This document shows, piece after piece, positions 273 through 19,921 of a stretch of DNA of 20,086 nucleotides (position 1 is its first letter; each line of letters opens with the position of its first letter). A program made the position numbers and the translations under genes. Below the pieces are notes generated by a model. That model had not been told where the DNA came from, did no database searches, and saw only the letters and a program-made list of their open reading frames with translations. The stretch comes from a virus: positions 1 through 20,086 of the IMG/VR virus record IMGVR_UViG_3300012001_000040; one strand, written 5' to 3'.

Positions 273-426
273 GGAAGAACTGAGCGAGTCATTCTGGGAA
301 ACGGATGGCCTTGCCGATCAGATCTACGAGTTTCTCCGCCAGCACTTAGACCTCACTTCCGTGGAGATGATGGTGCGCAAATCAACGTCGCCCTACCTCG
401 CCCGGGAGAGCTGGGATTGGGAATGA
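265..426 (+). CDS. Small acidic hypothetical phage protein (53 aa)
   Basis: A 53-residue frame starts at ATG 265 (MTEEELSESFWETDGL...) and ends at TGA 424-426. It overlaps the upstream stop by 8 bases and the downstream exonuclease start by 4 (ATGA, 423-426). The N-terminal half is strongly acidic, and the C-terminus is aromatic (ESWDWE). No motif is recognisable. It is called a gene because it exactly fills the space between two coupled neighbours that would otherwise be an unexplained gap of about 150 bases. A small regulatory or inhibitory protein is possible, but nothing in the sequence shows this. Confidence 0.65.
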   Translation: MTEEELSESFWETDGLADQIYEFLRQHLDLTSVEMMVRKSTSPYLARESWDWE

Positions 427-1229
427 CTAACCTGGCGGCGGCCCTTCGGGGGGCCGCGGCCGGTAAGCCGGCACACAACGTCAGGGTGCTCTTCTTTGAC
501 ATCGAGACCATGCCCCACGAGGTCTACACCTGGGGTCTCTGGGACCAGAACGTAGCCATCAGTCAGATCATCAAACCGGGTCACGTCTTTGGCTTCGCGG
601 CCAAATGGCTGGGTGAACCGAACGCGGCCTGGATATCCGACGACACTGTCGGCCATCAGGAGATGATCCGCTCGGCACACCAGCTGCTCACCGAAGCGGA
701 CATCGTTGTGACCTACAACGGGATCTCCTTTGACATCCCGCACATGCAGCGGGAGTTCCTGCTGGCCGGGCTACTGCCGCCCAAGCCCTACAAACAGATT
801 GACCTGATGAGAGTGGCAAAGAAGCAGTTCAAGTTCGCCTCCAACAAGCTGGACTACATCTCCCAGCAGCTGGGCCTGGGCCGGAAGACCTCACACGAGG
901 GCTTCGCCCTCTGGGTGAAGTGCATGGCCGGCGACGAGAAGGCCCTTCGCAAGATGGCCGTCTACGCCAAGCAGGACGTGAAGCTGACCGAGAAGCTCTA
1001 CCACTACCTTCTGCCGTGGCTTACCAACGTACCCCACATCGGACAGATGGACGGTCAGGCAAACTCCTGCTGGGCATGTGGTGGCACGAAGCTCAAACGG
1101 GATGGCGTGGCACACGCCTTCGTGACCAGCTACAGGCTCTACCAGTGCCTAAAGTGTGGCGCCTGGGTCCGCGGAAACCAGCGACTGCAGGAGGCCACCT
1201 CCACCCGCCAGCAAAGGATCAATTCATGA
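423..1229 (+). CDS. DnaQ/YprB-like 3'-5' exonuclease with C-terminal zinc ribbon
   Basis: This is an RNase H-fold 3'-5' exonuclease of the DEDDy type (RNase_H_2/YprB-like), 268 residues from ATG 423. Exo I is FFDIET (Asp26 and Glu28), Exo II is YNGISFDIPHM, and Exo III is YAKQD (the YxxxD form), so the metal-binding acidic residues all appear present. After the nuclease domain comes a zinc ribbon: CWACGG, then about 24 residues, then CLKCGAW. Proteins of this family trim single-stranded or mismatched 3' ends of nucleic acid. In phages they sit near replication genes and may act in proofreading, recombination or host DNA breakdown. The ATG overlaps the upstream stop (ATGA). A TTG six bases earlier (417) is better spaced from GGGAG (404-408) and is an alternative start. 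Family call firm; substrate unknown. Confidence 0.88.
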   Translation: MTNLAAALRGAAAGKPAHNVRVLFFDIETMPHEVYTWGLWDQNVAISQIIKPGHVFGFAAKWLGEPNAAWISDDTVGHQEMIRSAHQLLTEADIVVTYNGISFDIPHMQREFLLAGLLPPKPYKQIDLMRVAKKQFKFASNKLDYISQQLGLGRKTSHEGFALWVKCMAGDEKALRKMAVYAKQDVKLTEKLYHYLLPWLTNVPHIGQMDGQANSCWACGGTKLKRDGVAHAFVTSYRLYQCLKCGAWVRGNQRLQEATSTRQQRINS

Positions 1230-1471
1230 GCGACTTGACATACGCTGCCACGGCCCGCTGCCCCTGCGGGGCGGGCCTGGCCTACAACAAAAGCTGTCAG
1301 TTGGAGGATACTCCGGCGAGATGGCCGTACAACGGCTATTGGGACTGCTCGGCCATCCTCCTTGGCTCAGCTAATCACGCAGTGCAGCACACGGCCCAGC
1401 TGCCGTTCGCTTTCTACAACATCAAATCCGAGGGCCAGCCCTCGGCGCGGGGCGGGACCACGCGGCCGTGA
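1226..1471 (+). CDS. Small Cys-containing, possibly zinc-binding protein (81 aa)
   Basis: This 81-residue protein starts at ATG 1226, overlapping the exonuclease stop by 4 bases (ATGA). Near the N-terminus it has RCPCGAGLAYN, a CxCG knuckle, with further Cys at KSCQ and WDCS. The pattern suggests a small metal-binding fold, though the spacing is not that of a classical zinc finger. The rest is hydrophilic with a Gly/Arg-rich tail. It ends at TGA 1469-1471, sharing one base with the ATG of the sigma-like gene. Position suggests it is co-expressed with the exonuclease and may act with it or bind nucleic acid. The function is unproven. Confidence 0.7.
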   Translation: MSDLTYAATARCPCGAGLAYNKSCQLEDTPARWPYNGYWDCSAILLGSANHAVQHTAQLPFAFYNIKSEGQPSARGGTTRP

Positions 1472-2038
1472 TGACCATCAACCGTGAAGACGAGTGGAAG
1501 ATAGAAGGGTTGGAAATGACCGCACCATTGGACAGTGATCTGTATCTGTCCCTGGAGCCGCTCGTCAACGACGTCGCAGCGAAGGAATGGGCAGGCTCTG
1601 GTATCTACGAGCTGGAGGACGTCGTGCAGGCCGTATGGCTGCACGTCATGGAGCACTGGGAGGAGTACGAGGACGCGGGTGGCGGGCTTGTCCGCACAAT
1701 GGCCCGCCGCGCCGCGCGCACCTACTGCAAGAAGCAGCGGATCGACTACATGTACGCCAATGGGGCATTCATCTACACGCCGGGCATAGTCCGGCGGTAT
1801 CTGGTGGAGACCGTCTTCTGTGACCCCGAGCACGCTTCGGATCTCGAGGCCCGGGCTGACATCGACGAGGCGATGGGGCACCTGCCCCACGCCCAGCGGC
1901 GCGTCCATCTACAAGAAGTACGCCCTGAAGGAGCCATTGCTGACTCCGGGGGAAAAGTCCGCGGAGTCCCGCGGCATTACGGAAATCACCCATCGTCTCA
2001 ACACTGGTCTCCGGCTCCAGCCGGAGTTCCTCCCCTGA
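1471..2038 (+). CDS. Sigma-factor-like DNA-binding protein, frame broken by one extra base
   Basis: The start is ATG 1471 (GTG 1468 is also possible), one base overlapping the previous stop. The first part resembles sigma-70 region 2: acidic and helical, with ELEDVVQAVWLHVMEHW, then RTMARRAARTYCKKQR. After about 1890 the frame decays into Pro/Ser/His-rich sequence and would run to 2112, 64 bases into the next gene. One frame over (+1), from 1901 to TGA 2036-2038, lies a sensible end: SIYKKYALKEPLL, then AESRGITEITHRLN, a plausible region-4-like helix-turn-helix. Removing one base at about 1894-1903 joins the halves into 188 residues ending 10 bases before the next ATG. Expected role: redirecting host RNA polymerase, or another DNA-binding role. 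Whether the break is error, mutation or programmed shift is open. Confidence 0.68.
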
Positions 2039-2048
2039 AAGGAATCAC

Positions 2049-2240
2049 ATGCAAACCGCCGCCGCTATCCTTGCTTTCCTACTCCTCCTCACCATCGGCT
2101 TCGTTGGCCTGACCCTACTGCTCTGGTGGCTGGTTCCGCTGGCCTTCCCGGCCCTGGTCTTCGGGCCTTGGAATGCCATGGCACTGTCCGGCCTCACCCT
2201 GATCTTCGCCGGCATGGCATCGACCAAAGTATCCAAGTAG
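2049..2240 (+). CDS. Small two-helix membrane protein (63 aa)
   Basis: This 63-residue protein is almost wholly hydrophobic, with two predicted membrane helices (about residues 3-32, rich in Leu/Phe/Trp, and about 40-57, MALSGLTLIFAGMAS) and a short polar tail ending STKVSK. The ATG is preceded by AAAGGAATCAC, a good ribosome binding site lying just after the TGA (2038) of the repaired sigma-like gene. It is the last gene of the + strand operon, directly before the terminator. Small membrane proteins at such places can affect lysis or superinfection, but no motif here shows which. It is far from the lysis genes' own transcript. Function unknown. Confidence 0.75.
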   Translation: MQTAAAILAFLLLLTIGFVGLTLLLWWLVPLAFPALVFGPWNAMALSGLTLIFAGMASTKVSK

Positions 2241-3090: not shown

Positions 3091-3991
3091 CTATTTGCCA
3101 CCGAGCAACTTCACAAGTTCGTCACGAACAGCAACAGCGAGGCCTGCAGCGTCGATCTGCGCCGCGATCTCCGGGGCCGAAGCGGATGCGTCCACACGGG
3201 CCACAGCGTTGATCAGGTCAGCCCAGTACTGAGCCTTGGGCAGTGCGGGGGTGTCGGTGTTGGTGTTGATCTTGTCTAGAACGTTGAACAGGGTTGTGAT
3301 TTGCTCCGGGGTCATGTCGTCCTCCTGGACGGGTGTGATCGTGCCTTCAGTGATGATGGTGCCGGTTCGTGCGGCCAGCCTGTCCCACGCCGCCGCGTCA
3401 CCGTAGAAAATGTTCAGGTCCAGTTCCCGGCCCCAACCGGGCAGGTAGCCCGTGGACGTGAACTGCCACATGGAAACGACCATGCCGTCCGGGACACCGA
3501 TAGGTCCGGCTGGTGGGTTGTAGCCGTCGATGCGCTGGTAACCGAGCGAATACCCGGCCGCCCAAATGGGGGAGTCCGCTTCGTAGCAGGGGCGCAGGTA
3601 CTCCAGCTGGGAGACCGACCCGTACATCACGCACCGGACGCCGCCTTCGGACTCCACCACCCGCTTGAATTCCAGCGCGTAAGCCGAGTCGGTGACGTTG
3701 TCGCCCTCCCAATCGCAGAGCACGATGGCCTCGCCCAGGTAGCCCTGAATGTTGGTCAGGAAGTGGTGGGCCTCGTCCACGGCTGAGCCCTCACCCTGCC
3801 CGGGGTCGTGTACGAAATGGTTAGACGGCCAGTTTCTTCCCGGCGGCCTTCGCGGCTCGGTAATGCTGATCGCAGTAAGGATTCACGTAGGTGGTGCCAC
3901 CAGTGGCCTTGATGATGACAAGGTCACCGGGCAACGCCCCCACGTCGATGCCTGCCTGCGCACTGGAGATGTCGAACCCGAACATGGCCAT
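3091..3991 (-). CDS. GH25 lysozyme-type endolysin, frame broken by one extra base
   Basis: A glycoside hydrolase family 25 endolysin, which cuts the N-acetylmuramic acid-N-acetylglucosamine bond of peptidoglycan. ATG 3991, with AGGAAG upstream, opens MAMFGFDISSAQAGIDV, the usual N-terminus with the first catalytic-face Asp (Asp7), and continues to KKLAV, then stops at TAA 3823-3821 after 56 residues. In the +1 frame the protein goes on as HFVHDPG, then IVLCDWEGD with the catalytic pair (Asp93/Glu95 in the repaired protein), SMWQFTSTGYLPGWG and LDLNIFYGD. Dropping one A at 3821/3822 turns TAACCAT into TACCAT and gives KKLAVYHFVHDPG, a typical GH25 join, and a 299-residue product. A tail of about 90 residues after the catalytic domain may bind the wall. 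As written, no full enzyme is made unless the ribosome shifts frame. Confidence 0.88.
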
Positions 3992-5573: not shown

Positions 5574-6761
5574 TTAGTAGCGGATTCCGCCGTTGGCTAC
5601 GGTGAGGATCTCGCCGTTGTCCTCGTACTTGTTGGTGGTGTACAGCCCGGTCACCTTGGCGCCGGTGGTTGACGACGTCGGCCGGATCGGGTACTCGTTG
5701 CTGAGGGTTCCGTTCCAGTAGTAGAACGCAGTCCGCCGGATCGTGTTGTTCTGGAAGACGTAGACGCCGTCCTTCAAGTTGCCGGACATGCCGCCGTTGG
5801 AGTACCAGTTCTGCTCGACGATGACGTTGTTGTCCAGCGCCTTCATGAGCACACCGCCCCAGCTGTTGCACTGGATGAGAGTGCCAGCACCCTGGATGTG
5901 TCCGACACCGTCGCCGTTGGTCTGTGTGAACGTTCCGGGCTTGGCTGTCAGGTCAGTGGAAAGCGATCCGCCCGCGTAGGCGGTCCCGTCCGGGTCCGGA
6001 TAGGCCCGGTCGTCGCCGAGCTTGACGGTTCCCTGCAGGTAGTTGCCGATGATGTGGACGTAGCCACCGCACTGGAGCTGGATCAGGTCGTTGTGTGTGC
6101 CGTCGGCGTGCGCCGGCTCAGGGGCCCAGTAGATGAGTTCATGGATCCAGCTGCCCTCCACCTTCAGGCGCGAGCCCTTGGTGGTGGATGAGGTGTCGGT
6201 GTTGTAGGAGCCGATGCCATCGTTCGTGTTGTAGATGTTGCAACGCTTCACCCAGGCGTGGCCGTCAATGCCGTCCCGGTAGTAAGAGGGGCGCTGCGCG
6301 TAGATCGTGCAGTCCTCGAAGTATGGGACGCCGTCCCATGGGGCGATGTCGGTAACCCGGGAGAGAACAGTCGCCGAACGGCAGTCCGCTACAGCGTCCT
6401 GGCCTGTGGGCCAGTTCGTCCCGCCGCGGAGGCGGCAGTTGATGAACTGCACGCCGGGAGCCTGTATGTTCAGGTCGCCATAGATGTCCAGGTTGGCGAA
6501 GATTGTATCGGCCGTGGTGATGTTCAGCACCGCACCGCCCGTGTTGTACGGGGTCAGGGTGATCCCGGCAATGACGCCGGTATTGGTGGCGTCCGGCTTG
6601 TACGTCCCGCTGACCAGCGCATCCCGAGGATTGGTTCCAGTGGACGTGGGGGCCGGAGTGGGATCGGGCGTGGTCGTGGCGGTGGGAGTTGTCGTGGTCT
6701 TCCTGCGCGCCCAAACGTTCCCGGCCGTCTGGGCGTAGGTGTATGCGTCACTGCCGGTCAC
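5574..6761 (-). CDS. Parallel beta-helix (pectate-lyase-like) tail spike or fibre protein
   Basis: 395 residues from GTG 6761, which overlaps the preceding stop by 4 bases (GTGA). The same frame is open up to 7133, but that upstream part is Arg/Pro/His-rich noise lying over the previous gene, so the later start is chosen. Residues about 20-45 form a Thr/Pro/Ala linker (TTTTPTATTTPDPTPAPTS). From about 62 on come short rungs typical of right-handed beta-helices: GVIAGITLTPYN, AVLNITTADTIFANLDIYG, GVQFINCRLRGG, FEDCTIYAQRP, NIYNTNDGIGSYN, VHIIGNYLQG, VIVEQNWYSNG, VYVFQNNTIRR. Asp/Asn-rich turns and His/Asp pairs (HADGTHND) could form a glycan-active or binding site. Role: surface polysaccharide recognition or cleavage. 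Enzyme activity is unproven. Confidence 0.83.
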   Translation of the reverse strand: MTGSDAYTYAQTAGNVWARRKTTTTPTATTTPDPTPAPTSTGTNPRDALVSGTYKPDATNTGVIAGITLTPYNTGGAVLNITTADTIFANLDIYGDLNIQAPGVQFINCRLRGGTNWPTGQDAVADCRSATVLSRVTDIAPWDGVPYFEDCTIYAQRPSYYRDGIDGHAWVKRCNIYNTNDGIGSYNTDTSSTTKGSRLKVEGSWIHELIYWAPEPAHADGTHNDLIQLQCGGYVHIIGNYLQGTVKLGDDRAYPDPDGTAYAGGSLSTDLTAKPGTFTQTNGDGVGHIQGAGTLIQCNSWGGVLMKALDNNVIVEQNWYSNGGMSGNLKDGVYVFQNNTIRRTAFYYWNGTLSNEYPIRPTSSTTGAKVTGLYTTNKYEDNGEILTVANGGIRY

Positions 6762-7366: not shown

Positions 7367-8317
7367 TTACCAGCCGACGGCGATGAAGTCGACCCGGTGC
7401 TGCAGGTTCGGGGCCAGGATCGGCCCGGCACCGTTCTGACTGCGCCACACGCTGTAAACCACGTCAGCCGGGCCGCCGGTGCCGGAGATGCCCCAAAAGG
7501 CGTTATTGCCCTCAACGGTGTAGAAGGTTGCCCCGGCCGTGGCTGAGTTGTCGCCATTCATCAGGAACACAGTGAGCAGTCCACCGGGGAACGATTGCGG
7601 GAAGGTCAATCGGGCATACCCGACCTGGTCTGTAGTCAGGATCGCGGAGCCAGCTTGGATAAGAAAACCCGGGACCAAGGCCGGGTTGCCGCTGAGGGCA
7701 CCGCCGACGCCGAAAAGTGAAGTGGTCCCCATGGGGGACGAGGAGATCCACGAGGGATTGCCATTGACGTCCGGAACGCACAGCCACATGGCACCGTTGA
7801 TGGTGACCTGAGCACCGAGCTCCTTCAGGAAGGTCAGGGCCAGAACATCCTTGGCTACCATGCCGCCGTTGCGGGCCCAGCAGCGCAGGGGCACAATCTC
7901 CTGAACCGCCGTCTGGCCGGCGGTGAACCGGATCAGCGCGATGGGCTGGTCGTCAAGAGTTCCGGGAGTGGTGTTCCTGGCTGGGAGCGCCTTGGCCGCC
8001 GAGCCTGCGATGATCACGAAGGTGGTTGCACCGCCGATACCCGACCAGTTGCGTCGGGCCACTACCATGTCCCACCGGTCGCCCGAGGAGACCAGGCCGC
8101 CCTGGAGCGACACGGTGGCGTCGGAGGTGTCCAGGACTCCGTGGCCCCAGCCGGAGCCGACCGAGATATTGATGCCGCGGTCCATGGTGGTAAGAGCTGA
8201 GACCCTCCAGTCGTCGGTGCCGGAAATGCCGTAGTGCGCAATGCCGACGCGCGGGACAAGACTTGCCCACTGCGTTTCGTTGACTGTGCCGTCATAGCCA
8301 ACACTGGTGATAGTCAT
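7367..8317 (-). CDS. Tail fibre protein with gp53-like C-terminal domain (316 aa)
   Basis: 316 residues. The N-terminal part (about 1-130) holds MTITSVGYDGTVNETQWA, a Gly/Ser-rich beta region with GWGHGVLDTSDATVSL. This form is common in actinophage minor tail proteins, where it fixes the fibre to the tail. The middle contains a linker region (PSWISSSPMGTTSLFGVGG). The last 100 residues, with ARLTFPQSFPGGLLTVFLMN and ending VDFIAVGW, match the C-terminal domain type of tail fibre gp53-like proteins, a trimeric receptor-binding head. The ATG directly abuts the preceding stop (TAAATG, 8320-8315). It lies between the tail hub and the collar/beta-helix pair. Role: host binding. Confidence 0.8.
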   Translation of the reverse strand: MTITSVGYDGTVNETQWASLVPRVGIAHYGISGTDDWRVSALTTMDRGINISVGSGWGHGVLDTSDATVSLQGGLVSSGDRWDMVVARRNWSGIGGATTFVIIAGSAAKALPARNTTPGTLDDQPIALIRFTAGQTAVQEIVPLRCWARNGGMVAKDVLALTFLKELGAQVTINGAMWLCVPDVNGNPSWISSSPMGTTSLFGVGGALSGNPALVPGFLIQAGSAILTTDQVGYARLTFPQSFPGGLLTVFLMNGDNSATAGATFYTVEGNNAFWGISGTGGPADVVYSVWRSQNGAGPILAPNLQHRVDFIAVGW

Positions 8318-9439
8318 TTACTTGCTCACCTTCAGGTCTGTAATGCCCTTCTTCAGCCGGGCGAGGAACTTTGCGATAGTGCGGTCGGGGCTGTCTTGGA
8401 TATCCCCGATCACGGGGGTTGCGACGTAGCCCTCGTCGCGTGTGTAGCTGAGCGTTACCTCACGCAGCACGTCTGTGCGGGTAACGAAACCGAGGTCGAT
8501 GGTGACCTGAGCACCGACGACGAGGCCGTCTGTGCCGTACTGGTAGTGCTCTGTCTCTGACAGGCTGACTGCGAACCCGGACTTCGGGGCGCTCTCGTCG
8601 AGCGACTCCTGGGCGCGGGACGCCAGAATGGCCAAGGTGTCCGCGTCACGGGCATCCCTGAACAGTTCAAAGATGTCGTTGTGGGCCACCTCCAGGGCGG
8701 TGTCCCGCACGTCGGTGAAAACCCGGGCGACTCCGTCCCCCGTACCGCCTGCCACAACGTGGGTTGCGATGGGATCCTCGGAAGCCCAGGACCAGCTATC
8801 AACGACCCCTGACGCCTCTGTGAGCGTCCTGGGAAACACTGGTGGTACAAATACGTCACAGACGATTCCTGTGCCCACCTGCTTGAACGTGACGCCGATG
8901 CCGGCCTTTTCAATGGCCGGGAACAGCCGCTCGTAGAGCGGGTGGAACCTCAGGGATACGCCGTCGGGAACGGTGGCTCCGCGGTTGCCGTTGGTGGCGC
9001 AGGTCACGGCCATACCCAGGCGGGTGATCATGTTGGCCATAACGATGTTCTTGACGATCGTCTCTGCGTTGCCGATGTAGACCCCGTACTCGGAGGTCTG
9101 CGCGGTGAGCGCAGCCCCTGGTACCGGGTAGCCGATGATCTGGTGCAGCAGCCGGAAGTCGTCCTTCACGTAGAAGGTCAGGGTGCTCTGGATGGTTGGG
9201 CCCTCCGCTTGGCGAAGGTTGACCTTGCCACTCATGAGGAACTGGCCCCGTAGGGACAGGACTACGCGGGCTCCATCTGCCAGCAGGAAGGGCACCGCGT
9301 GGTGCTCCGTCTCCACAACGATGGTGGCGGTGCCGGTCTGGTTGAACCGGGGTGTGGCAACCAGGGAGATGGGGTCACCGATGAATGCCTTGAAAGCGAA
9401 GCTCTTGTCGTAGACGGCGATCGTGAACGGATTGTCCAT
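8318..9439 (-). CDS. ReqiPepy6 gp37-like tail hub / minor tail protein (373 aa)
   Basis: 373 residues that match the Siphovirus ReqiPepy6 Gp37-like family: FTIAVYDKSFAFKAFIGDP near the N-terminus, then ATPRFNQTGTATIVVETEHH and GQFLMSGKVNLRQ. The middle holds a long alpha/beta part (IVKNIVMANMITRLGMAV). Towards the end come GAQVTIDLGFVTRTDVLREV and a C-terminus of EGYVATPVIGDI, typical of tail-hub (Tal/gp27-like) proteins. These form the ring under the distal tail protein, closing the tube and carrying fibres. Order after tape measure and distal tail protein is the expected one. A single base separates its ATG from the upstream stop (TGATATG). No lysozyme or peptidase domain was seen. Confidence 0.85.
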   Translation of the reverse strand: MDNPFTIAVYDKSFAFKAFIGDPISLVATPRFNQTGTATIVVETEHHAVPFLLADGARVVLSLRGQFLMSGKVNLRQAEGPTIQSTLTFYVKDDFRLLHQIIGYPVPGAALTAQTSEYGVYIGNAETIVKNIVMANMITRLGMAVTCATNGNRGATVPDGVSLRFHPLYERLFPAIEKAGIGVTFKQVGTGIVCDVFVPPVFPRTLTEASGVVDSWSWASEDPIATHVVAGGTGDGVARVFTDVRDTALEVAHNDIFELFRDARDADTLAILASRAQESLDESAPKSGFAVSLSETEHYQYGTDGLVVGAQVTIDLGFVTRTDVLREVTLSYTRDEGYVATPVIGDIQDSPDRTIAKFLARLKKGITDLKVSK

Positions 9440-9440
9440 A

Positions 9441-10370
9441 TCACCACGCCCTGTAGTAGAGCGGCGTGAAGCGTGCTGCTATCTCGCCGGTACCCGACAT
9501 GCTCAGGCTTAGGTTGACCGTCTGCTTTGGAGGCAGAGGGGCGAAGTCGATGGCGCCGAGGGAGCCGGTCATATCGACAGTGAGCTCCCCGCCCACCGGT
9601 CCCTGCATGGCCTGCTGGGCCCGGGGGTCGGTGTCGATCTCAAGCATCTGTCCATCGGCGATGGCGAATGGGATGGTGATGTTCCGGCCGTTGACGCCGA
9701 CAGTGGCCGAGCTGATCGGCCCGTAGATCTGCCAGAGCACGTAGGTCTGGACGTCTCCAGGGTTGTCGATCGCGGCCTCTGCCAGCGTGCCGCCCGGGGA
9801 GATGTAGAACGATGGGGCGCCGGTGCCGCCAAAGAACTGGCTGGACGTACCGGGCGACCACAGGCCGCCCAGGGGATCGCCTTCCCAGTAGGGCTGCTCC
9901 GCGTTGAGGGTAATCCCGTAGTTGGACCAGCCCTCCAGGACCGAGTCATGGTTCATGGAGAAGTCGGTGTCGTCGGTGAAGCGCAACTGCAGCCGGCGCT
10001 GCCGGCCGTCGGGGGTTATTACCACCCAGGTACCGGTCCTGGTCGGGTCCATGGTGCCCCAGAAGGCACTGTCCCTGGCGATCCAGTCAGCACTGCTGGT
10101 GCTGCAGAAGACCTGCAGCGGCCAGAAGACCGGACGGACATCCACGGTTGACCCACGCCACCGGGCGCCCGGCACGGATGCGTGGGCGGCCCGGTGGTGG
10201 ATGATCGGTGGCATGTTCAGTCCGCGGACGCCTGGCATCAGGACCGTACCGTCGGACTCGTCCGTGAGGGTCCATTCGGACCCGTCCCAGCCGATCCATT
10301 TCATGGTGAGGCCGAACCAGTCAACGTTGGTCGGCGCGACGGGCAGGACGGCACCAAAAATGAGGCCCAT
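9441..10370 (-). CDS. Distal tail protein (Dit-like), 309 aa
   Basis: 309 residues with the siphovirus distal tail protein pattern. N-terminal beta domain: MKWIGWDGSEWTLTD, a loop with GVRGLNMPPIIHH, then WRGSTVDVRPVFWPLQVFC. A middle part has GTWVVITPDGRQRRLQLRF and WSNYGITLNAEQPYWEGDP, features common in Dit proteins of actinophages. The C-terminal half is a galectin/jelly-roll-like beta domain (VLWQIYGPISSATVGVNGR, then VNLSLSMSGTGEIAARF and LYYRAW). Dit forms the hexameric hub joining tail tube to tip. It follows the tape measure by 12 bases; its AAAGGAG site overlaps the tape measure stop end. Confidence 0.87.
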   Translation of the reverse strand: MGLIFGAVLPVAPTNVDWFGLTMKWIGWDGSEWTLTDESDGTVLMPGVRGLNMPPIIHHRAAHASVPGARWRGSTVDVRPVFWPLQVFCSTSSADWIARDSAFWGTMDPTRTGTWVVITPDGRQRRLQLRFTDDTDFSMNHDSVLEGWSNYGITLNAEQPYWEGDPLGGLWSPGTSSQFFGGTGAPSFYISPGGTLAEAAIDNPGDVQTYVLWQIYGPISSATVGVNGRNITIPFAIADGQMLEIDTDPRAQQAMQGPVGGELTVDMTGSLGAIDFAPLPPKQTVNLSLSMSGTGEIAARFTPLYYRAW

Positions 10371-10382
10371 TGGTTTGCTCCT

Positions 10383-13300
10383 TTAGTGGATGCCCTCGAG
10401 TGAGAGAGCGTCCCGCTGCAATGCCCTCAGCTTCCTGATGGCGCTTTCGGGATCGACGGTGTTGATGGTTCCGACAGTGACGCTGGTGTTGGTGGTCCGA
10501 GTCGGGACGGTGGATCCGCCAGGAGTGCCGTTGGCAAGGCTGGTTGCCCGGGTGAGCTCGAAGCCGAACTTCTTGGCAACCTCACCGAGGATGGACAGGG
10601 ACCGTGGCCGCTTGGAGGCGGCCAGCGGGATGTATGCCTCGCCGCCGGTCTCGGGTTCCGCAAAAAAGCGGAGGACCGATGATGGCCGGAACAGCCCCGC
10701 GGTGTGGTTCTCGACCCCGCCGTTGGCGAAGGACTTGACCCCTGCCGGGAACTGGCCCTTGAACAGGTCGCTGAACTGCCGGACGGTCTGGAAGAGACCG
10801 CCGTCGGCATTGGTTCCGAAGCGGCCGTTGCCGGATACGTCGCCGTTCAGGTCGGACAGCTGGGAGCGGTCCACGATGGCCTTGAACATTACGGTGCGGT
10901 CATAGGCCGCGGCGTCCAACGCCGCCCTGGCGACCTCGATAGAGGTGCCGTCTGCGACCGCCTTGATGAGGGCCACATAGTCAACGGCAGCGCCGTTGCG
11001 GATCTGGATGACAGCCTCGGCCAGGCCAGGGACGCCATCGGCGACCCTGAGGATGGACGTAAAGTCGCCCGCGACCCACGTCTTGTCGGTCTGGTTGAGC
11101 AGTGCTGTGATCGTCGCCTGGGCAGGCTCCGGCAGGGCGCCTAGCGTAGCGTCCCAGGTGTGGTTGACGTAGTCGGTGGCTGCCTGTACCGGATTTTGGA
11201 TGGCCTCCATGGCCTTGTCCGGGTTGGCGTCGAGATAAGCGACGAAGTCCTTGCCGTCGAAGGTCCCCTTGAGGACCGTCACCAGGTTCTGGGCCCGGGC
11301 GGCTGCCTCCGTGGCGCCGTCGAGGGTGACCTTGAGGACCCAGTCGTGGCCGAAGACGGCGTCCCACTGGCCCTGGACCATATCGGCTGATACGCCTGAG
11401 GCCACGGCAAGGGCGTTGTAGTCGCCCTTGTGGTCGTTGATGAACGCCTGGGCCTTCTGGAAGGCCCCTGTGGCGGTGTCGCCCTGCTTGATGGCGGCAT
11501 CGTAGGCCGCCTTGGCGCCGGCCCAGACGTTATTGACCTCGTCCACGAGTGCCTGGTTGACCTGCAGCACGGCCTTGTTACCGCTGGCGACGTTGAGGAA
11601 CCCGTTTGCGCCAAAGGCCGCATCGCCGAGATTCCGCATCTCTCCGGCGACCGGTATCACCGAGTCCTTGATGTCGTTGAAGCCCTTGACGTAGGCACCC
11701 AGGGTCTCAGCTGCCGCCTGCGCGGCGTTGGTGCCGAGCAGGATCTCGAAGGTCTTGCGCATCGCGTCGATCTTGGACTGGCTGCTGGAGAAGGTGTCCG
11801 ACAGTGTGGCGGACGCCTGGGCCGCGGCACCGAGTGCCTGGGCCGTAAGGCCCGACTGGGCGGCGAGGGCCCTCTGGCTGGTGGCCTGCGCGTCAGTTTG
11901 GATGCCCGCTGCCTTGGATGCTTCGGCGTTGGCCTCGTTGGCAATTTGCATTGCGTCGAGGCTGTCCTTGTTATCGTTGAGCGCGTCGCGCAGCTTCTTG
12001 GCCGCACCGGCCTGATCGGCCATCGCGGCCGTCGGGGCACCGGACGGGGTGTCGCCGGCAAACTGCTGCTGGGCCGAGACGGCCTTCGCGGCCGCCGCCT
12101 GGGCGTCGTCGTAGGTGGAGATGGCCCCGGAGATCTTCTTCTGAAGATCGTCCCAGGCGGACCCGCCCTTGACGATGGCGTCCGTGACTTCCTTGTTGCC
12201 GATCCCGAGCTTCTTCGCGGCATCGTAAGCGCCGGAGGTGACGAGCTTATTGATTGCAACCTTGGTCGTGGCCAAACCCACGGCGCCGGCCACGGCACCT
12301 GCAGCCTTTGCATCCTCCTGGAGGGCGGCTGCGTATTCACTGGCGTAGGGGGCGGCGGCGTGCTGGGAGGTTGCGAGTGCGGTGATGCCGAACGCGATCA
12401 AACCGGTGAGGGCGGCGAGGACAATGCCGACGACCGGTACCATCAGCTGCACCCTGACGGCCGAGATAGCGGCCGTGACGCCGAAGGCTTCGAGGGCTGC
12501 TGCGGCAAGCGGGACGACCGTGCTGGCGAACTTGAACGCCGTGCCGAGCGAGAGGATAAAGCCCGCCATTGCGGCGAGGTTAGGGAGCGGCAGGCTGGTA
12601 ACCATGGTGACCGCCACGGCGGCGAAGGCAGCCATGAACCTGATCACAGGCACGAGGCCGTCGCCGATTTTCTGTATGCCGCTGGCGAAAGCCGGGATCA
12701 CCGTTCCGGCAACGGCCCCGAGGGCCGGGCCGAGGATGTTGACGACGGTCGTGCCGAACTGGATCAGCCCGGGCAGGAAGGGCGCCAGTGCCGACCATGC
12801 CACGGTCAGGACACCGGCTAGCTGCTGGAACAGGTTCTGGAACAACGGCCCCGAGTCGGTGGCCACCTGGCCGAGGACTTGCCCGACCGTCTGGAGGATT
12901 GTCGCAACCGATGCTGCAGCCGGGCGTAGCGCAATGAACATGCTCTGGAGCCCGGTCAGGAAGGCCGTCAGGCCAACGCCCACTAGGGGGCTGGAGAACA
13001 CATCGCCGATATCGGCGACGAGCGCCGCGAGGGCGTGCGCCGAGCCAACGAGGGTATTCTTGACCGTCACTGAGAAGGTGTCCATCGCCGGGCCGAGGGA
13101 GCCGAGGGACTTGAAGAAAATATCCGAGGCCTGTCCCGCGCCCTCGAAGATCGCCTTCATGTTTTTCTGGAAGCGGGGGCCGGAGGTGACCGCGTCGAGC
13201 TTGGCGAGCGCATCGGCGAAGGAATGCAGGGTGAGAGCACCGGCGGCCTGGGCCGCCTGGCCGATGTTGCCCCAGACATTGATCAGGGATACGCCGGCGC

Positions 13301-15080
13301 CGAAGAGGTCTTTCATGCCCTGGACGCCATCAGCTACCCAACGGTGGAGGGTGCCGTCAGCGGCGATCTTCGCGGCCCAGGTGCTGAACTTGGCGGACAT
13401 GTCGTTGAAGGCCCGCCCGATCTCTGGGAAGGCGGTCGAGCCGGCTACCGCAAGCGCGAGGAACCCGTCCATGAAACTCGACAGGCCTGTCTGTGCGACG
13501 TCGAAGCCATGGGACAGGTTGTCAAAGAAGACCTTGACCCCGTCCTGCTTGGTGAGTTTGGTGAAAGAGTCGAGGAGGGAGGAGAAGACACCCCCGAGGG
13601 AACCGGACAGTTGCCCGAGCCCGGACCCCACGGCAGGCAGGGCGGTCTCTACAAAGCGCAGCATACCGTCGCTTGCCTTGTCCCAGAAGTTCGCCGAGAC
13701 CAGCTCGCGGATGCTGGCGAAGACCGGCTTGATCTCTTCGGCGGCCTTCCGGCCCGCCGGAGACAGCCTTTCAAGGGCCTTTGTATCGCCGTTGACGGCG
13801 GCACCGAAGTCCTTGAACACACCCTTCATGACGACCATTACTGCACCGAGGCCGAGGAGCATCGCAGGAGCCATCACGGCGGCCATGCGGACGACCTCAC
13901 CCAGCCCATTGCCGAGGGAGAACGCGTCGCTAGTCAGGGACACGATCGAGGAGGATAGCTGGGAGACCCCGAGCACGGCAGCTGCCACGATGGGCAGGTT
14001 ACGGTCGAGGGTGCCGATGGACTCAGCGAACTCCTGGGCCCACCTGCTGGCGGCCCTCAGGCCGGTGAGCTTGGCGGCGGCCAGGACGAGGCTGGAATCG
14101 TTCATCTTGGCAAAGATGTTGACCGTCTGGTTCTTGGTCAGGAGCTTGATCGCGGCCAGGGTGACAAGGAAGTCCGACTGGGCGATCTCGGGCTTGATCT
14201 TGAGCTTGTTCTGCTCGGCTGCCTTGATCTTGGCATCGACGATGGCCAGCTGCTCACGCAGCGCGGCCTCGTCAAGCGTTGTCTCGATGTGGATCTTGTG
14301 GTCGATATGGAGAAGCTCTTCAATCCTGGCCTTAGCGACCCGGAGCCCGGCCTCGTTGTCGTCGTAGTCGATCCGGACGGTCAGGGTGCCCAGCTCTTCC
14401 TCAAGCCTGGCCTTGGCGAATGCCAGTTCCAGGGGGTTGAGGTTGACGCTGATCTTGACGGCGCCGACCTTGGCCAGTTCTGCGTCGATCTCCGCGATTG
14501 CCTTTTCCAGGCCGGCACGGTCCTGGTTGTAGGAGATATCGACCTTCATTACGGGCTTTGATGCCTCCAGGAGGGCCTTGTACTTGGCCTCCTCCCTGGA
14601 CAGTGATGCCTCGTCGGTCTTGAACTCGATGGTCTTCTCAAGCTTCTGCCGGCGGATGGCGTCGATCTTCGCCAGGACCTCCCTATAGCCCACTTCGTCC
14701 GGGGAGAAGGTGATCTCGACATTGGCGTCCTTGGCCATAGCGGCCAGATCGGCCTGCGCCTTGGCGATGCTGGCGGCGTCCTTCAGGTCAACCGGGATCT
14801 CGATCTTCTTCTTGAGCAGGGCCTCGAGCTGCTTCATCCCGGCGCGGACAGAGTCGTAGTCCAGACCGACGTTGAGCGTTATCTTGGTCCGCTCGGCTTC
14901 CTTCTTGGCCTTCTCGACGTCCACCTTGACCGCGGTGGTGTCGGCCTCGATCTTGATCTTGACAGTGGCTTCCACGCCAGCGAGCTCTTTGTTGATCGCG
15001 CGCTGTGCATCACCACGGAATCCGCGGGCATCCGGGCGCACCTTGATGGCAACGGCACCGACAAGTTTGAGGTCAGCCAA
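10383..15080 (-). CDS. Tape measure protein (1565 aa)
   Basis: At 1565 residues this is by far the longest gene, placed between the tail chaperones and the distal tail protein, as expected for the tape measure that sets tail length and is pushed out at DNA entry. At about 1.5 A per residue in helix it predicts a tail of roughly 230 nm, an inference from the general rule. Residues 40-346 are tandem beta-alpha repeats (separate entry). Hydrophobic stretches lie near 362-380, 399-418 and further on (VIRFMAAFAAVAVTMVTSL; LMVPVVGIVLAALTGLIAFG), as usual for pore-forming parts. The rest is Ala-rich helix. Near the C-terminus are GGLFQTVRQFSDL and GLFRPSSVLRFFAEPETGG, a known tape-measure end motif. 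The ATG overlaps the chaperone stop by 8 bases. No frame breaks. Confidence 0.95.
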   Translation of the reverse strand: MADLKLVGAVAIKVRPDARGFRGDAQRAINKELAGVEATVKIKIEADTTAVKVDVEKAKKEAERTKITLNVGLDYDSVRAGMKQLEALLKKKIEIPVDLKDAASIAKAQADLAAMAKDANVEITFSPDEVGYREVLAKIDAIRRQKLEKTIEFKTDEASLSREEAKYKALLEASKPVMKVDISYNQDRAGLEKAIAEIDAELAKVGAVKISVNLNPLELAFAKARLEEELGTLTVRIDYDDNEAGLRVAKARIEELLHIDHKIHIETTLDEAALREQLAIVDAKIKAAEQNKLKIKPEIAQSDFLVTLAAIKLLTKNQTVNIFAKMNDSSLVLAAAKLTGLRAASRWAQEFAESIGTLDRNLPIVAAAVLGVSQLSSSIVSLTSDAFSLGNGLGEVVRMAAVMAPAMLLGLGAVMVVMKGVFKDFGAAVNGDTKALERLSPAGRKAAEEIKPVFASIRELVSANFWDKASDGMLRFVETALPAVGSGLGQLSGSLGGVFSSLLDSFTKLTKQDGVKVFFDNLSHGFDVAQTGLSSFMDGFLALAVAGSTAFPEIGRAFNDMSAKFSTWAAKIAADGTLHRWVADGVQGMKDLFGAGVSLINVWGNIGQAAQAAGALTLHSFADALAKLDAVTSGPRFQKNMKAIFEGAGQASDIFFKSLGSLGPAMDTFSVTVKNTLVGSAHALAALVADIGDVFSSPLVGVGLTAFLTGLQSMFIALRPAAASVATILQTVGQVLGQVATDSGPLFQNLFQQLAGVLTVAWSALAPFLPGLIQFGTTVVNILGPALGAVAGTVIPAFASGIQKIGDGLVPVIRFMAAFAAVAVTMVTSLPLPNLAAMAGFILSLGTAFKFASTVVPLAAAALEAFGVTAAISAVRVQLMVPVVGIVLAALTGLIAFGITALATSQHAAAPYASEYAAALQEDAKAAGAVAGAVGLATTKVAINKLVTSGAYDAAKKLGIGNKEVTDAIVKGGSAWDDLQKKISGAISTYDDAQAAAAKAVSAQQQFAGDTPSGAPTAAMADQAGAAKKLRDALNDNKDSLDAMQIANEANAEASKAAGIQTDAQATSQRALAAQSGLTAQALGAAAQASATLSDTFSSSQSKIDAMRKTFEILLGTNAAQAAAETLGAYVKGFNDIKDSVIPVAGEMRNLGDAAFGANGFLNVASGNKAVLQVNQALVDEVNNVWAGAKAAYDAAIKQGDTATGAFQKAQAFINDHKGDYNALAVASGVSADMVQGQWDAVFGHDWVLKVTLDGATEAAARAQNLVTVLKGTFDGKDFVAYLDANPDKAMEAIQNPVQAATDYVNHTWDATLGALPEPAQATITALLNQTDKTWVAGDFTSILRVADGVPGLAEAVIQIRNGAAVDYVALIKAVADGTSIEVARAALDAAAYDRTVMFKAIVDRSQLSDLNGDVSGNGRFGTNADGGLFQTVRQFSDLFKGQFPAGVKSFANGGVENHTAGLFRPSSVLRFFAEPETGGEAYIPLAASKRPRSLSILGEVAKKFGFELTRATSLANGTPGGSTVPTRTTNTSVTVGTINTVDPESAIRKLRALQRDALSLEGIH
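14043..14963 (-). repeat. About 11 degenerate beta-alpha repeats (~28 aa each) in tape measure N-terminus
   Basis: Within residues 40-346 I can lay out eleven units, each with an alternating hydrophobic strand, usually an Asp or Asn turn, then an amphipathic helix. Unit starts are roughly residues 40, 67, 93, 121, 151, 178, 208, 233, 263, 293 and 320. Examples of strands: VKIKIEADTTA, ITLNVGLDYDS, IEIPVDLKDAA, MKVDISYNQDR, LTVRIDYDDNE, IHIETTLDEAA. Units vary from 25 to 30 residues and share pattern more than identity. The boundaries were set by eye. Confidence 0.7.
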
Positions 15081-15899
15081 GGGGGAATCCGTTCTTTCTG
15101 AAGAAGTCGAAGTTGTCCTCGTACTCCTGTTCGGCGGGCTTTATAGCCCCTTCAGTCCAGGCGGACGGACCTATCTGCTCGAACTTCGGTGGCCCGTCAG
15201 GGCCCCACGTTCCGGAGATAGCGGTGTTGAGATTGATTGCGTTGATTTCCATAGCGACCAGCCGGCGATCCAGGGTCCAGACACGGTGGTCCATGATCGC
15301 TTCCATGCGGGGATCGGGCTTGGGTTTGTCGGTTACTTCGGGAGGGTTCTCTTCGCGATCAACAGTGACGGCGGCGTAATAGCGGGATCCCTCGGGGAGG
15401 TTCCGGAGCATGGCGAAGATGATGGCGATAGAGGAAAAGACCTCGCCAGCAATGAAGCTGACGAGGTCAAGTCCCCAGAACTCCTTGAGATCAAGGTAGA
15501 TCTCCTCGCCGTACTCGTCGATCAGCTCTCCGAGGGCGAAGCTTCCCCCGGGCTGGTCACTTCGGAGTACTGCTCGAAGAGGTAAAGCCAAATGCCCAGG
15601 TCTTCCAGGCCAGCCCACTTCAGAAGCGCGGCGTGGTCCCCCCTGGTGCGCTCGGCCGCCTTCAGGGCGTCCGACATGACGCTGATCATCAGCTGGGCCT
15701 GGTCTACGTCATGCCCCTCCGGAAGGTCTTCCGTGCGCTTCTTCAGGTCCATCGCGTCATTTATAGCGCGACGCTTGACCTTCGGGAGCCGGAGTACGGG
15801 GCGGAAACCGAGGATCCTTCCGTCTTCGGTTTCAACTTCAAAATCGGGGTACTTGGCGGCCGCGCCTTTGCGCAGGTCGTCCAGTGAAAGTGCGGACAT
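15073..15899 (-). CDS. Tail assembly chaperone, long -1 frameshift product (gpGT-like, ~275 aa)
   Basis: Translation starts at ATG 15899, runs 118 codons in the short-chaperone frame, and slips back one base at CCCGGGG (15552-15546). It then continues as [18 protein letters not shown] to the stop at 15075-15073, giving about 275 residues. The second frame (open from 15618) lacks a convincing start of its own: its first 20 or so residues overlap the short chaperone and are Arg/Pro-rich. The extension has a hydrophobic helix ([20 protein letters not shown]) and a charged end. Lambda G/GT proteins work this way: both forms coat the tape measure and recruit tail tube subunits. Gene place, just upstream of the tape measure, and 8-base overlap agree. 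The shift site is read from sequence and is not tested. Confidence 0.85.
15522..15899 (-). CDS. Tail assembly chaperone, short form (gpG-like, 125 aa)
   Basis: 125 residues starting [19 protein letters not shown], with a strong GAAGGAG site upstream. The N-terminus is a small beta part ([19 protein letters not shown]), followed by charged helices ([16 protein letters not shown], then [20 protein letters not shown] and [20 protein letters not shown]), a layout shared by actinophage tail chaperones. It ends [18 protein letters not shown] when no frameshift occurs. It is expected in excess over the long form and binds the tape measure during tail assembly without staying in the virion. It lies between the major tail protein and the tape measure, its normal place. 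Confidence 0.88.
15546..15552 (-). promoter_or_regulatory. -1 ribosomal slippery heptamer CCCGGGG
   Basis: On the - strand the bases read C CCG GGG in the chaperone frame (codon GGG is 15548-15546), an exact X XXY YYZ heptamer. Slipping back one base re-pairs CCG with CCC and GGG with GGG, and joins the frame ending at 15522 to the one ending at 15073. The overlap of the two frames (15522-15618) contains no equally good site; GGGGGAA right beside it is weaker in this phase. Confidence 0.8.
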
Positions 15900-15943
15900 T
15901 TACTGACTCCTTCATGGAAAGCGGACGGTCTAAAGGGGCCCAC

Positions 15944-15968
15944 GGGGCCGGGGTCCGCACCCGGCCCC
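15944..15968 (-). terminator. Strong GC hairpin after the major tail gene
   Basis: GGGGCCGGG (15944-15952) and CCCGGCCCC (15960-15968) make a perfect 9-bp GC stem with a 7-base loop. It lies 16 bases after the repaired major tail protein stop and about 45 bases before the chaperone ATG. On the - strand it is not followed by a good U tract (only CCCCTTTAG further on), so it may be a partial terminator, a pause site or a 3' mRNA-protecting stem that lowers chaperone expression relative to tail tube. Confidence 0.6.
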
Positions 15969-15983
15969 ACGGGGGCTTGTTTA

Positions 15984-16758
15984 CTACGGAGCTGCGATAG
16001 CCACGGGAGGGGGCGGACGTGTAGCCCGAGCCTCCGTTGGTGACGTTGATCGCAGTCACCACGCCGTCGGTAACCACTGCAGTTGCAGCGGCGAGTGTGC
16101 CGCCACCTCCGGAGAAGGTAACTGCAGGAGTCGCGGTGTAGCCCGAACCGCCGGAAACGACCGTGACCGAGGAGACGGCGTTGGCCGTGACAGTCGCGGT
16201 AGCGGTAGCGGTCGAGAGGATGACAGCAGGGCTGATCCACTCGAAGGGCCAGTCGTTGGAGCCGTAGTTGAGCGGGGTGACCTTCAGCGACAGCTGGGCC
16301 AGGTTTTCGGTGTCCGCAACGGTCAGGTCGTCCGCGCGAAAGATCGAGACCCTGGGGGCGTAGATCCCGGCCGTGGACTGTCCGTCATAAAAGACGACCA
16401 TCCAGGCGACTTCTGTCGGGACAGGGTTGGAAGGGACGCGGACGTTGCCGGCGACGATAGCGGCATTGGAACCGTAGTAGAGCAGCAGGCCAGGGTGATC
16501 GAACTGGAGCAGCTTCATAACGAACGCTTCAGTACGGGCTGCGATGGTCTGGCGCAGGGTCTTGTTCTGCAGCGACCGCAGGGTGGTGGTGTCGCCACCT
16601 TCCGAGCTGCCGGCAAGAATGTCCTGAATGGAGGTGTGGCCAACTTCGGTCCACGGACTTGCGGGATTTCGCAGGTCGGTGGCGATTGCAGTGCCAACAG
16701 GCGCCGTGTAAAAGTGGCCGGTGCCAACCTTCAGCACGGCAGTGTTGTCAATTGCCAT
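15984..16758 (-). CDS. Major tail (tube) protein with C-terminal GSGYT domain; frame broken by one extra base near the end
   Basis: The major tail protein forms the tail tube. ATG 16758 has AAGGAG upstream and starts [19 protein letters not shown]. Middle: [40 protein letters not shown] and [19 protein letters not shown], typical of actinophage tail tube proteins. The last 62 residues of the repaired protein form a repeated GSGYT domain also present on the capsid protein. As written, the frame passes a run of five Cs (- strand, 16013-16009), misses a tandem stop (TAG TAA, 15986-15981) and runs to 15838, across a hairpin and into the chaperone gene, giving Arg/Pro-rich nonsense. One C fewer gives [12 protein letters not shown] then stop, parallel to the capsid end (YTSDPTVTVAAP), and 257 residues. 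+1 slippage at CCC-U is the alternative. Confidence 0.88.
15987..16173 (-). repeat. C-terminal GSGYT domain of the major tail protein (paralogue of 18551-18736)
   Basis: Here the units read [19 protein letters not shown] and [19 protein letters not shown]. The alignment with the capsid copy is gap-free over all 62 residues only if one of the five Cs at 16009-16013 is dropped, which supports the frame repair. Confidence 0.82.
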
Positions 16759-18547: not shown

Positions 18548-19921
18548 CTACGGGGCAGCGACGGTAACGGTCGGGTCGGAGGTGTATCCGGAGCCCGCGG
18601 CGGTAACTGCGATAGAGGTGACCTGGCCGTTGAGGATGGTCGCAACAGCAGTTGCGAGAGTGCCACCGCCACCGGAGATGGTGACCGCCGGGGTGGAGGT
18701 GTAGCCGAAGCCCTGAGCGGTAACCGTGACCGAACCAAGCGTGTTGCCGGAGCGGACAGCCAGGGCCGTAGCAGCTGCCTTGGAGCCGGGGTAGTTGCCA
18801 CCGAGCGGGAAGGGTTCGCCAACGACCGAGGGACCGGTGATCGGCTGGAGGTTGTAGGCCTTGGCGAGGAAGGAGGCTGGGTCGCCGCCGGGGGTTGTGG
18901 TGGATCCGTCGCCGGGCTTCTTCTCGATGGCCGAGGTGGTAGCCTTCAGGGCCAGCTTCACGCCACGGACGAAGTACCTGTCGGAGGAGACGATCTCACG
19001 GGAAGATCCGTCGTAGACGGCCAGGAGATCCTTCACGTAGGAGTAGCCGGCGTAGCAGTCAAAGACCGAGCGGTCTGTCAGGTACGCGGTGTCGTAGTCC
19101 ATGAGCCAGCGAAGGGCCCAGCCACCGGCGGAAGCCTGTGCGCCGAAGGGCACGGACTGCGGGATGGACGGCACGCCGGTGAAGACCAGGAAGCCGGAGC
19201 CCGCGTACATGTAGGCCTCGTCGGCGGCGATGTGCGTCGAGGAGACGAACTTCACGCCGGCGATGGTGCCGAGAGTGGCCGTGGTCAGGGCGGAGTCGCC
19301 CGTGGCCTGGTCCTTCAGGAAGCGGTTGGACTTGATGATCTGCTCTTCAAAGTCCACGCCGCACACGCAGTACAGGGTCTCGCTCGGGGTCCTCATGAGG
19401 CGGATGGCCTTTTTGGCCTCCACGACGGCGTTGTAGAAGACTTCCTGGTTGGCGGCCTTGGCGTCGGCCAGCCCGGTCGTGTCGTTCTTGACCAGAACTA
19501 CACGCTCGTAGGGCGCCTTGAGGATCTCGTTGAGCACACCGTGCTCGAGGTAGGATGCGATCGCGATGGACTGGGCGGAGATGAGGTCGCCCCAGCCGTC
19601 CTGGAAGTCCCAGTCGCGCTGTTCGTCCGTCATCTTGATGGCAGAATATGGACGATCAGCGGAGATAGTCAGGGTCACGACTGTCTCCTGATAGGAGTCC
19701 GTGATGATGGGCTGGCTGCGGTCGTTGCGCGCCGTGTAGGTGCGGACGGGGACGGTGCCACGCACTCGCTGGGAGATTGTGTCGCCGGCGGACGCGAAGA
19801 AGGTCTTCATGTCGTTGCGCTTGGTGACGGTATTGGCAATTGACAATTCGTCACGAAGGGCAGACACAGCCGCCTGGACAAGCACTGCTGGCTTGACCCT
19901 GAGGCTCGGTGTGTAAGTCAT
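18548..19921 (-). CDS. Major capsid protein with C-terminal GSGYT domain (457 aa)
   Basis: 457 residues; HK97-fold coat protein, probably the P22 gp5-like branch common in actinophages. N-terminus: SLRVKPAVLVQAAVSALRDE, then a beta part (ISQRVRGTVPVRTYTARND and YQETVVTLTISADRPYSAIK), a helix-rich spine (AQSIAIASYLEHGVLNEILK), and FVSSTHIAADEAYMYAGSGF. Residues about 340-390 form a Gly/Pro/Thr linker, after which the last 62 residues form a repeated GSGYT domain ending VAAP, matched on the major tail protein. The RBS AAAGGG precedes the ATG, and an intrinsic terminator lies just upstream, so the gene may have its own transcript start or depend on read-through. No delta domain or scaffold fusion is visible at the N-terminus. 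Confidence 0.92.
   Translation of the reverse strand: MTYTPSLRVKPAVLVQAAVSALRDELSIANTVTKRNDMKTFFASAGDTISQRVRGTVPVRTYTARNDRSQPIITDSYQETVVTLTISADRPYSAIKMTDEQRDWDFQDGWGDLISAQSIAIASYLEHGVLNEILKAPYERVVLVKNDTTGLADAKAANQEVFYNAVVEAKKAIRLMRTPSETLYCVCGVDFEEQIIKSNRFLKDQATGDSALTTATLGTIAGVKFVSSTHIAADEAYMYAGSGFLVFTGVPSIPQSVPFGAQASAGGWALRWLMDYDTAYLTDRSVFDCYAGYSYVKDLLAVYDGSSREIVSSDRYFVRGVKLALKATTSAIEKKPGDGSTTTPGGDPASFLAKAYNLQPITGPSVVGEPFPLGGNYPGSKAAATALAVRSGNTLGSVTVTAQGFGYTSTPAVTISGGGGTLATAVATILNGQVTSIAVTAAGSGYTSDPTVTVAAP
18551..18736 (-). repeat. C-terminal GSGYT domain of the capsid protein (paralogue of 15987-16173)
   Basis: The last 62 residues of the capsid protein match the last 62 of the repaired major tail protein at 40 of 62 positions without a gap, counted by eye. 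Each copy is an internal duplication: SVTVTAQGFGYTSTPAVTI and SIAVTAAGSGYTSDPTVTV here. The middle SGGGGTLA is identical in both proteins. Confidence 0.85.

Follow-up and report, generated by a model that had tools for sequence, protein, structure and literature searches.

A frame break in a sigma-70-like gene of an uncultured phage contig, most likely a sequence error

The DNA considered here, called the window throughout, is a virus record of 20,086 bases with 63% GC, and at the locus of interest it carries a DnaQ-like exonuclease gene, a small open reading frame (ORF), a sigma-like gene with a break in its reading frame and a further short ORF (Table 1). The neighborhood is shared with six relatives, in which the sigma gene lies directly 3′ of an exonuclease gene (71–86% identical to that of the window) and starts no more than some 20 bases away from where the exonuclease match ends, a spacing so short that the two are probably translated in succession. 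The window differs from these relatives in two ways: they have the sigma gene in one frame, and they lack the small ORF between it and the exonuclease. This small ORF gave no family match in Pfam, PHROG, or NCBIfam. The host group of these uncultured phages is apparently actinobacteria, as judged by the best isolated-phage matches of the neighboring genes. Beyond the short ORF, between convergent gene blocks, a hairpin-like stretch (2247–2308) contains GGGTCCATTACGGATCCCGGGA and is 85% conserved in the closest relative, contig L002, the other contigs compared giving no match at E ≤ 0.01; from its sequence it resembles a two-way terminator.

Table 1. Coordinates of the features discussed, in window positions
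Feature	Position	Strand	Basis or remark
DnaQ-like exonuclease gene	417–1229	+	Pfam, PHROG 403
Small ORF, 81 aa, contains CPCG, in the exonuclease–sigma interval	1226–1471	+	ORF list
Sigma-like gene, zero-frame part with region 2	1471–1899	+	Pfam PF04542, PHROG 354, L002 alignment
Frame break (+1)	1897–1901	+	L002 nucleotide alignment, protein alignment with six relatives
Spurious zero-frame continuation	1900–2112	+	No match to relatives' proteins above shuffles; 64-base overlap with next ORF
+1-frame end of sigma-like gene, region-4-like	1901–2038	+	Kept in gene frame of six of six relatives; codon-position differences; shuffles
Following ORF, 63 aa, product judged hydrophobic from its sequence	2049–2240	+	Partial L097 ORF match, same frame, 2109–2204
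GH25 endolysin, rear piece, different frame	3091–3780	-	PF01183, profile 68–180 of 180
GH25 endolysin, front piece	3824–3991	-	PF01183, profile 2–53 of 180
Tail assembly chaperone pair, two-frame gene (contrast)	15073–15899	-	GGGGGAA in overlap; two-ORF layout also in L094
Tail tube protein ORF	15838–16758	-	PF25681; true C-terminus in +1 frame near 16006–15984

The gene encodes a sigma-70-like factor of the PHROG 354 type. Region 2, the part of such factors that binds the core RNA polymerase and recognizes the −10 element, is supported by Pfam; region 4, the helix-turn-helix that reads the −35 element, is suggested by its fold only. The sequence-only reading that drew attention to the locus had called the gene sigma-like, and this is borne out by a Pfam Sigma70_r2 (PF04542) match to residues 27–91 of the zero-frame ORF (27.6 bits, cut-off 24) and by a match to the PHROG 354 profile, named "sigma-K factor". 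When the +1 frame is joined, the PHROG 354 score rises from 41.1 to 56 bits and the covered part of the 220-position profile extends from 19–120 to 19–163, so that the joined protein does have a sigma match; the same profile is matched by all six relatives, L002 reaching 63.5 bits over profile positions 21–163. The four intact relatives (of six) that were compared with Pfam all match Sigma70_r2, at scores just to well under the cut-off (15.9–23.9 bits). The NCBIfam sigma70-ECF model TIGR02937 also stays below its cut-off of 42.9 (29.5 bits for the zero-frame protein, 27.9 for L002), and the protein is therefore not filed under that model. A sequence-profile search of solved structures returned eight matches (E 0.097–0.91), none named as a sigma factor.

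For the C-terminal end, which had been described as region-4-like, the evidence is divided: no Pfam region 4 model matches the joined protein or four intact relatives at E up to 1, and the fold model comes closest to sigma region 4 domains. A model of the L002 protein built from six sequences (pLDDT 75.3, pTM 0.49) placed sigma factors or sigma chains, by their titles and chain letters, in rows 1–37 of a Foldseek search, at E 0.047 or worse, and its region 2 (model residues 19–100) superposed by VIA-align on RpoE residues 2–87 (5uxx_C) with Z 8.4 and an rmsd of 2.7 over 80 aligned residues. When the last 70 residues of L002 were modeled alone (pLDDT 79.8), rows 1–32 of the Foldseek search were again sigma factors or chains by their titles (E 0.36 or worse), and the best VIA-align row was sigma-28 (1rp3_G, residues 167–236; Z 8.5, rmsd 1.4, 61 aligned); on a small helical domain, a Z near 8 is modest evidence for region 4. 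The predicted domain (L002:6310–6519) is in L002 and its relatives about nine residues shorter than solved region 4 domains and, in the L002 model, has one long helix at its end; its DNA-reading part may therefore be reduced, possibly as a reduced helix-turn-helix.

PHROG 354 proteins also occur in actinobacteriophages, for instance as the "sigma factor" of Thermobifida phage P318 (31.3% identity to the joined protein, E 1e-7, tblastn) and gp51 of Mycobacterium phage Benedict (27.1%, E 2e-3, tblastn), and these proteins do not show the broken frame, which is confined to the window. Isolated phages are distant on the whole: the joined protein has matches in 131 records at E ≤ 10, all with less than 60% identity, and among the 60 of the 131 that were listed most matches are weak (E > 0.01); a blastn search with positions 1400–2300 found no match among isolated phages.

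How do the two reading frames divide the gene? The zero-frame ORF (1468–2112, plus strand) encodes 214 aa from ATG 1471 or GTG 1468, with ATG 1516 also possible. As had been claimed from the sequence alone, it degrades toward its end, and its last 64 bases lie within the next ORF, its stop lying at 2110–2112 and the next ATG at 2049. Equally correct was the description of the +1 frame, which encodes SIYKKYALKE and AESRGITEITHRLN and stops at 2036–2038, with exactly 10 bases, AAGGAATCAC, separating this stop from ATG 2049. The pattern of GC content at codon positions 1/2/3 changes frame, zero to +1, where the break lies: it is 0.69/0.41/0.83 in the zero frame over 1516–1899 and 0.57/0.46/0.78 in the +1 frame over 1901–2038, as against 0.76/0.56/0.45 in the zero frame over 1900–2048. 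Alignment with relatives narrows the site from 1888–1906 to about 1897–1901, because the zero-frame residues LPHAQR still align with a relative's LPRAQK and because, in the nucleotide alignment, the window has one extra base at the break as compared to L002. There is no long homopolymer at this site in the window sequence, a point that speaks against an indel error.

The same gene is uninterrupted in six distinct IMG/VR contigs (L002, L005, L006, L007, L008, and L009; L003, L004, and L080 belong to the same contig as L002, which is counted once). These were delimited by E < 1e-50 among the 79 loci of a tblastn search, the next best matches having E 0.097 or worse, and they are 53.6–71.8% identical to the joined protein over 168–188 residues, L002 being the closest at 71.8% to the 188-aa product. 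With the exonuclease as query, 76 loci were obtained. A profile scan of viral contigs recovered the same six contigs, and a viral-contig search with the joined protein returned one relative, L002; the viral-contig scan with the zero-frame protein gave five pattern matches and no relative, and a profile scan of genome contigs gave 106 pattern matches and no relative. In all six relatives a single open frame, free of internal stops, spans the gene, and the +1 end of the window is what aligns with the end of that frame, whereas the zero-frame end to 2112 is kept in the gene's frame by none of them.

The +1 stretch itself carries the marks of a coding sequence. Its 45-aa end scores 109–193 against the ends of the six relatives, a level reached by none of 500 shuffles for each relative, in contrast to that stretch read in the zero frame or the third frame, which scores 14–23 and is reached by 49–484 of 500 shuffles. 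Among the matches listed by tblastx, one to L003 has 78% identity over 51 aa. Relative to L002, the stretch differs at 5/5/20 sites at codon positions 1/2/3, and 19 of the changed codons are synonymous and 7 non-synonymous; from this pattern it appears to be under purifying selection, which argues that the +1 frame either still codes for protein or ceased to do so only very recently.

The sigma-like gene is not the only interrupted gene in the window. In the endolysin, one GH25 domain is split over two frames, in the same +1 sense as in the sigma gene. The tail tube gene ends in ...PTVTIAAP and ...PTVTVAAP in the related contigs L094 and L095, and in the window the corresponding ...PVAIAAP and stop are found only in the neighboring frame, the open frame itself continuing into the next gene. 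Thus, 3 of the 15 comparable genes, that is, those that a relative covers for the most part (the remaining ORFs have no such relative), are broken, all in the +1 sense, which amounts to three breaks in 20,086 bases or about 15 per 100 kb. The other 12 are full ORFs, each in one frame with its relative over most of its length: the exonuclease, three tail-region genes (7370–8317, 8321–9439, and 9444–10370), the tape measure gene (covered in one frame by L097 over 15053–10389), both chaperone ORFs, four genes of the tail tube–capsid stretch and the capsid gene. General decay is therefore not indicated. A fourth break had been suspected in the tail-fiber genes (minus strand, near 6760) from the codon-position GC and one long L003 ORF, and was dropped since the stop of 7351–6758 shares the sequence GTGA with a GTG start in the next frame, which fits two coupled genes; the rear part of the tail-fiber region has no phage match, and the site stands outside the count of three.

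Because all six relatives are unbroken and two further genes of the contig are broken alike, we regard the break as most likely an indel error in a contig assembled from a metagenome, with at least three such errors within 20 kb, and not as a programmed frameshift. The locus would then hold an ordinary phage gene for a sigma-70-like factor of about 188 aa, with region 2 and a region-4-like end, cut by a one-base difference at about 1897–1901, and in the real phage the gene, like those of the relatives, would presumably be one continuous frame. The encoded factor would use region 2 to bind host RNA polymerase and perhaps its C-terminal domain to contact DNA, and would thereby steer transcription to phage promoters. 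What the sequence-only reading observed about the frames is thus confirmed, and its proposal that the gene "needs a shift" does not hold as biology, given that the relatives need none and that two more genes of the contig are broken alike; most likely, no biological feature is behind the shift. PMC6487183 treats, in the available part, errors of this type in long-read assemblies, and the density of about 15 per 100 kb supports a sequence error as a consistency argument only. Against this reading, a search of viral contigs with the DNA pattern across the break gave no match, and hence no further contig of this phage, in a comparison that may pass over records closely resembling the window.

A real frameshift mutation, which deprived the sequenced phage or prophage copy of the end of its sigma-like factor and left a recent pseudogene, perhaps in a decaying prophage, is the alternative that fares best, and we consider it unlikely. 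Viewed in isolation, the break would look the same if one real mutation had caused it, which counts against a sequence error, and the six intact relatives together with selection in the +1 stretch that looks recent are as a fresh mutation would give. Against this, three separate one-base events would be required, two of which would hit genes for lysis and tail functions needed by a phage, and the 12 other comparable genes are full ORFs, the long tape measure gene among them.

A programmed +1 frameshift, by which one gene would yield both a region-2-only product and a full-length product, is very improbable in our judgment. It would be suggested by the two open frames overlapping over 110 bases, by a CCCC run at 1885–1888 within the overlap (the only slippery-looking run noted by eye at the sigma gene), and by a ribosome-binding-site-like AAGGA directly behind the +1 stop. 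However, all six relatives read straight through and none has the two-frame layout, the zero-frame end compares with the relatives' proteins no better than shuffles do, and the two unrelated genes elsewhere in the contig are broken alike. The CCCC run is rejected as a shift site: it is also present in L002, without a shift, and a +1 slip there would lead out of the gene; moreover, the zero-frame residues 3′ of it still match L002, which places the break downstream of the run. Overlapping frames are likewise a property of the programmed frameshift of tail assembly chaperones, and the window offers its own contrast in the chaperone pair, whose layout is conserved in L094 and which has GGGGGAA in the window, whereas the layout of the sigma gene is not conserved. 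We give just as little credence to a real +1 switch limited to a single lineage, in which most ribosomes would make a region-2-only factor and a few the full sigma-like factor; were it true, the region-2-only factor would attach to RNA polymerase but contact promoters only in part. A titles-level listing of literature on phage sigma factors and frameshifts contains no report of such a case, and the available part of PMC12363180 makes no mention of the PHROG 354-type sigma-like protein family.

Scarcely credible at all is the idea of two separate genes, or of a zero-frame product with its own function, to which a GTG at 1820 in the +1 ORF and matches of the zero-frame end to L002 and L005 DNA (E 1.6e-5 and 0.004) might lend color, but those matches lie in an out-of-gene frame and are what shared DNA alone would give, the split occurs in no relative, the +1 ORF 5′ of 1901 falls within the conserved zero-frame region, and the zero-frame end reaches 64 bases into the next ORF and has no match to the relatives' proteins.

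Taking the break as a sequence error has a practical side, in that single-gene frame breaks in this contig should be treated as likely sequence errors before recoding is proposed. The biological content of the locus is that a small group of uncultured phages encodes a sigma-like factor beside a DnaQ-like exonuclease.

Two further observations concern other genes of the window. ARAGORN calls a tRNA-Arg (acg) at 11442–11531 (minus strand) inside the tape measure gene, a call that is probably false since the whole window has no Rfam match at gathering scores. The C-termini of the capsid (18551–18772) and tail tube (16006–16170) proteins, both on the minus strand, have in common a GSGYT..P.V-type end domain, which is also matched by the capsid and tail tube ORFs of L094 and by the tail tube ORF of L095.
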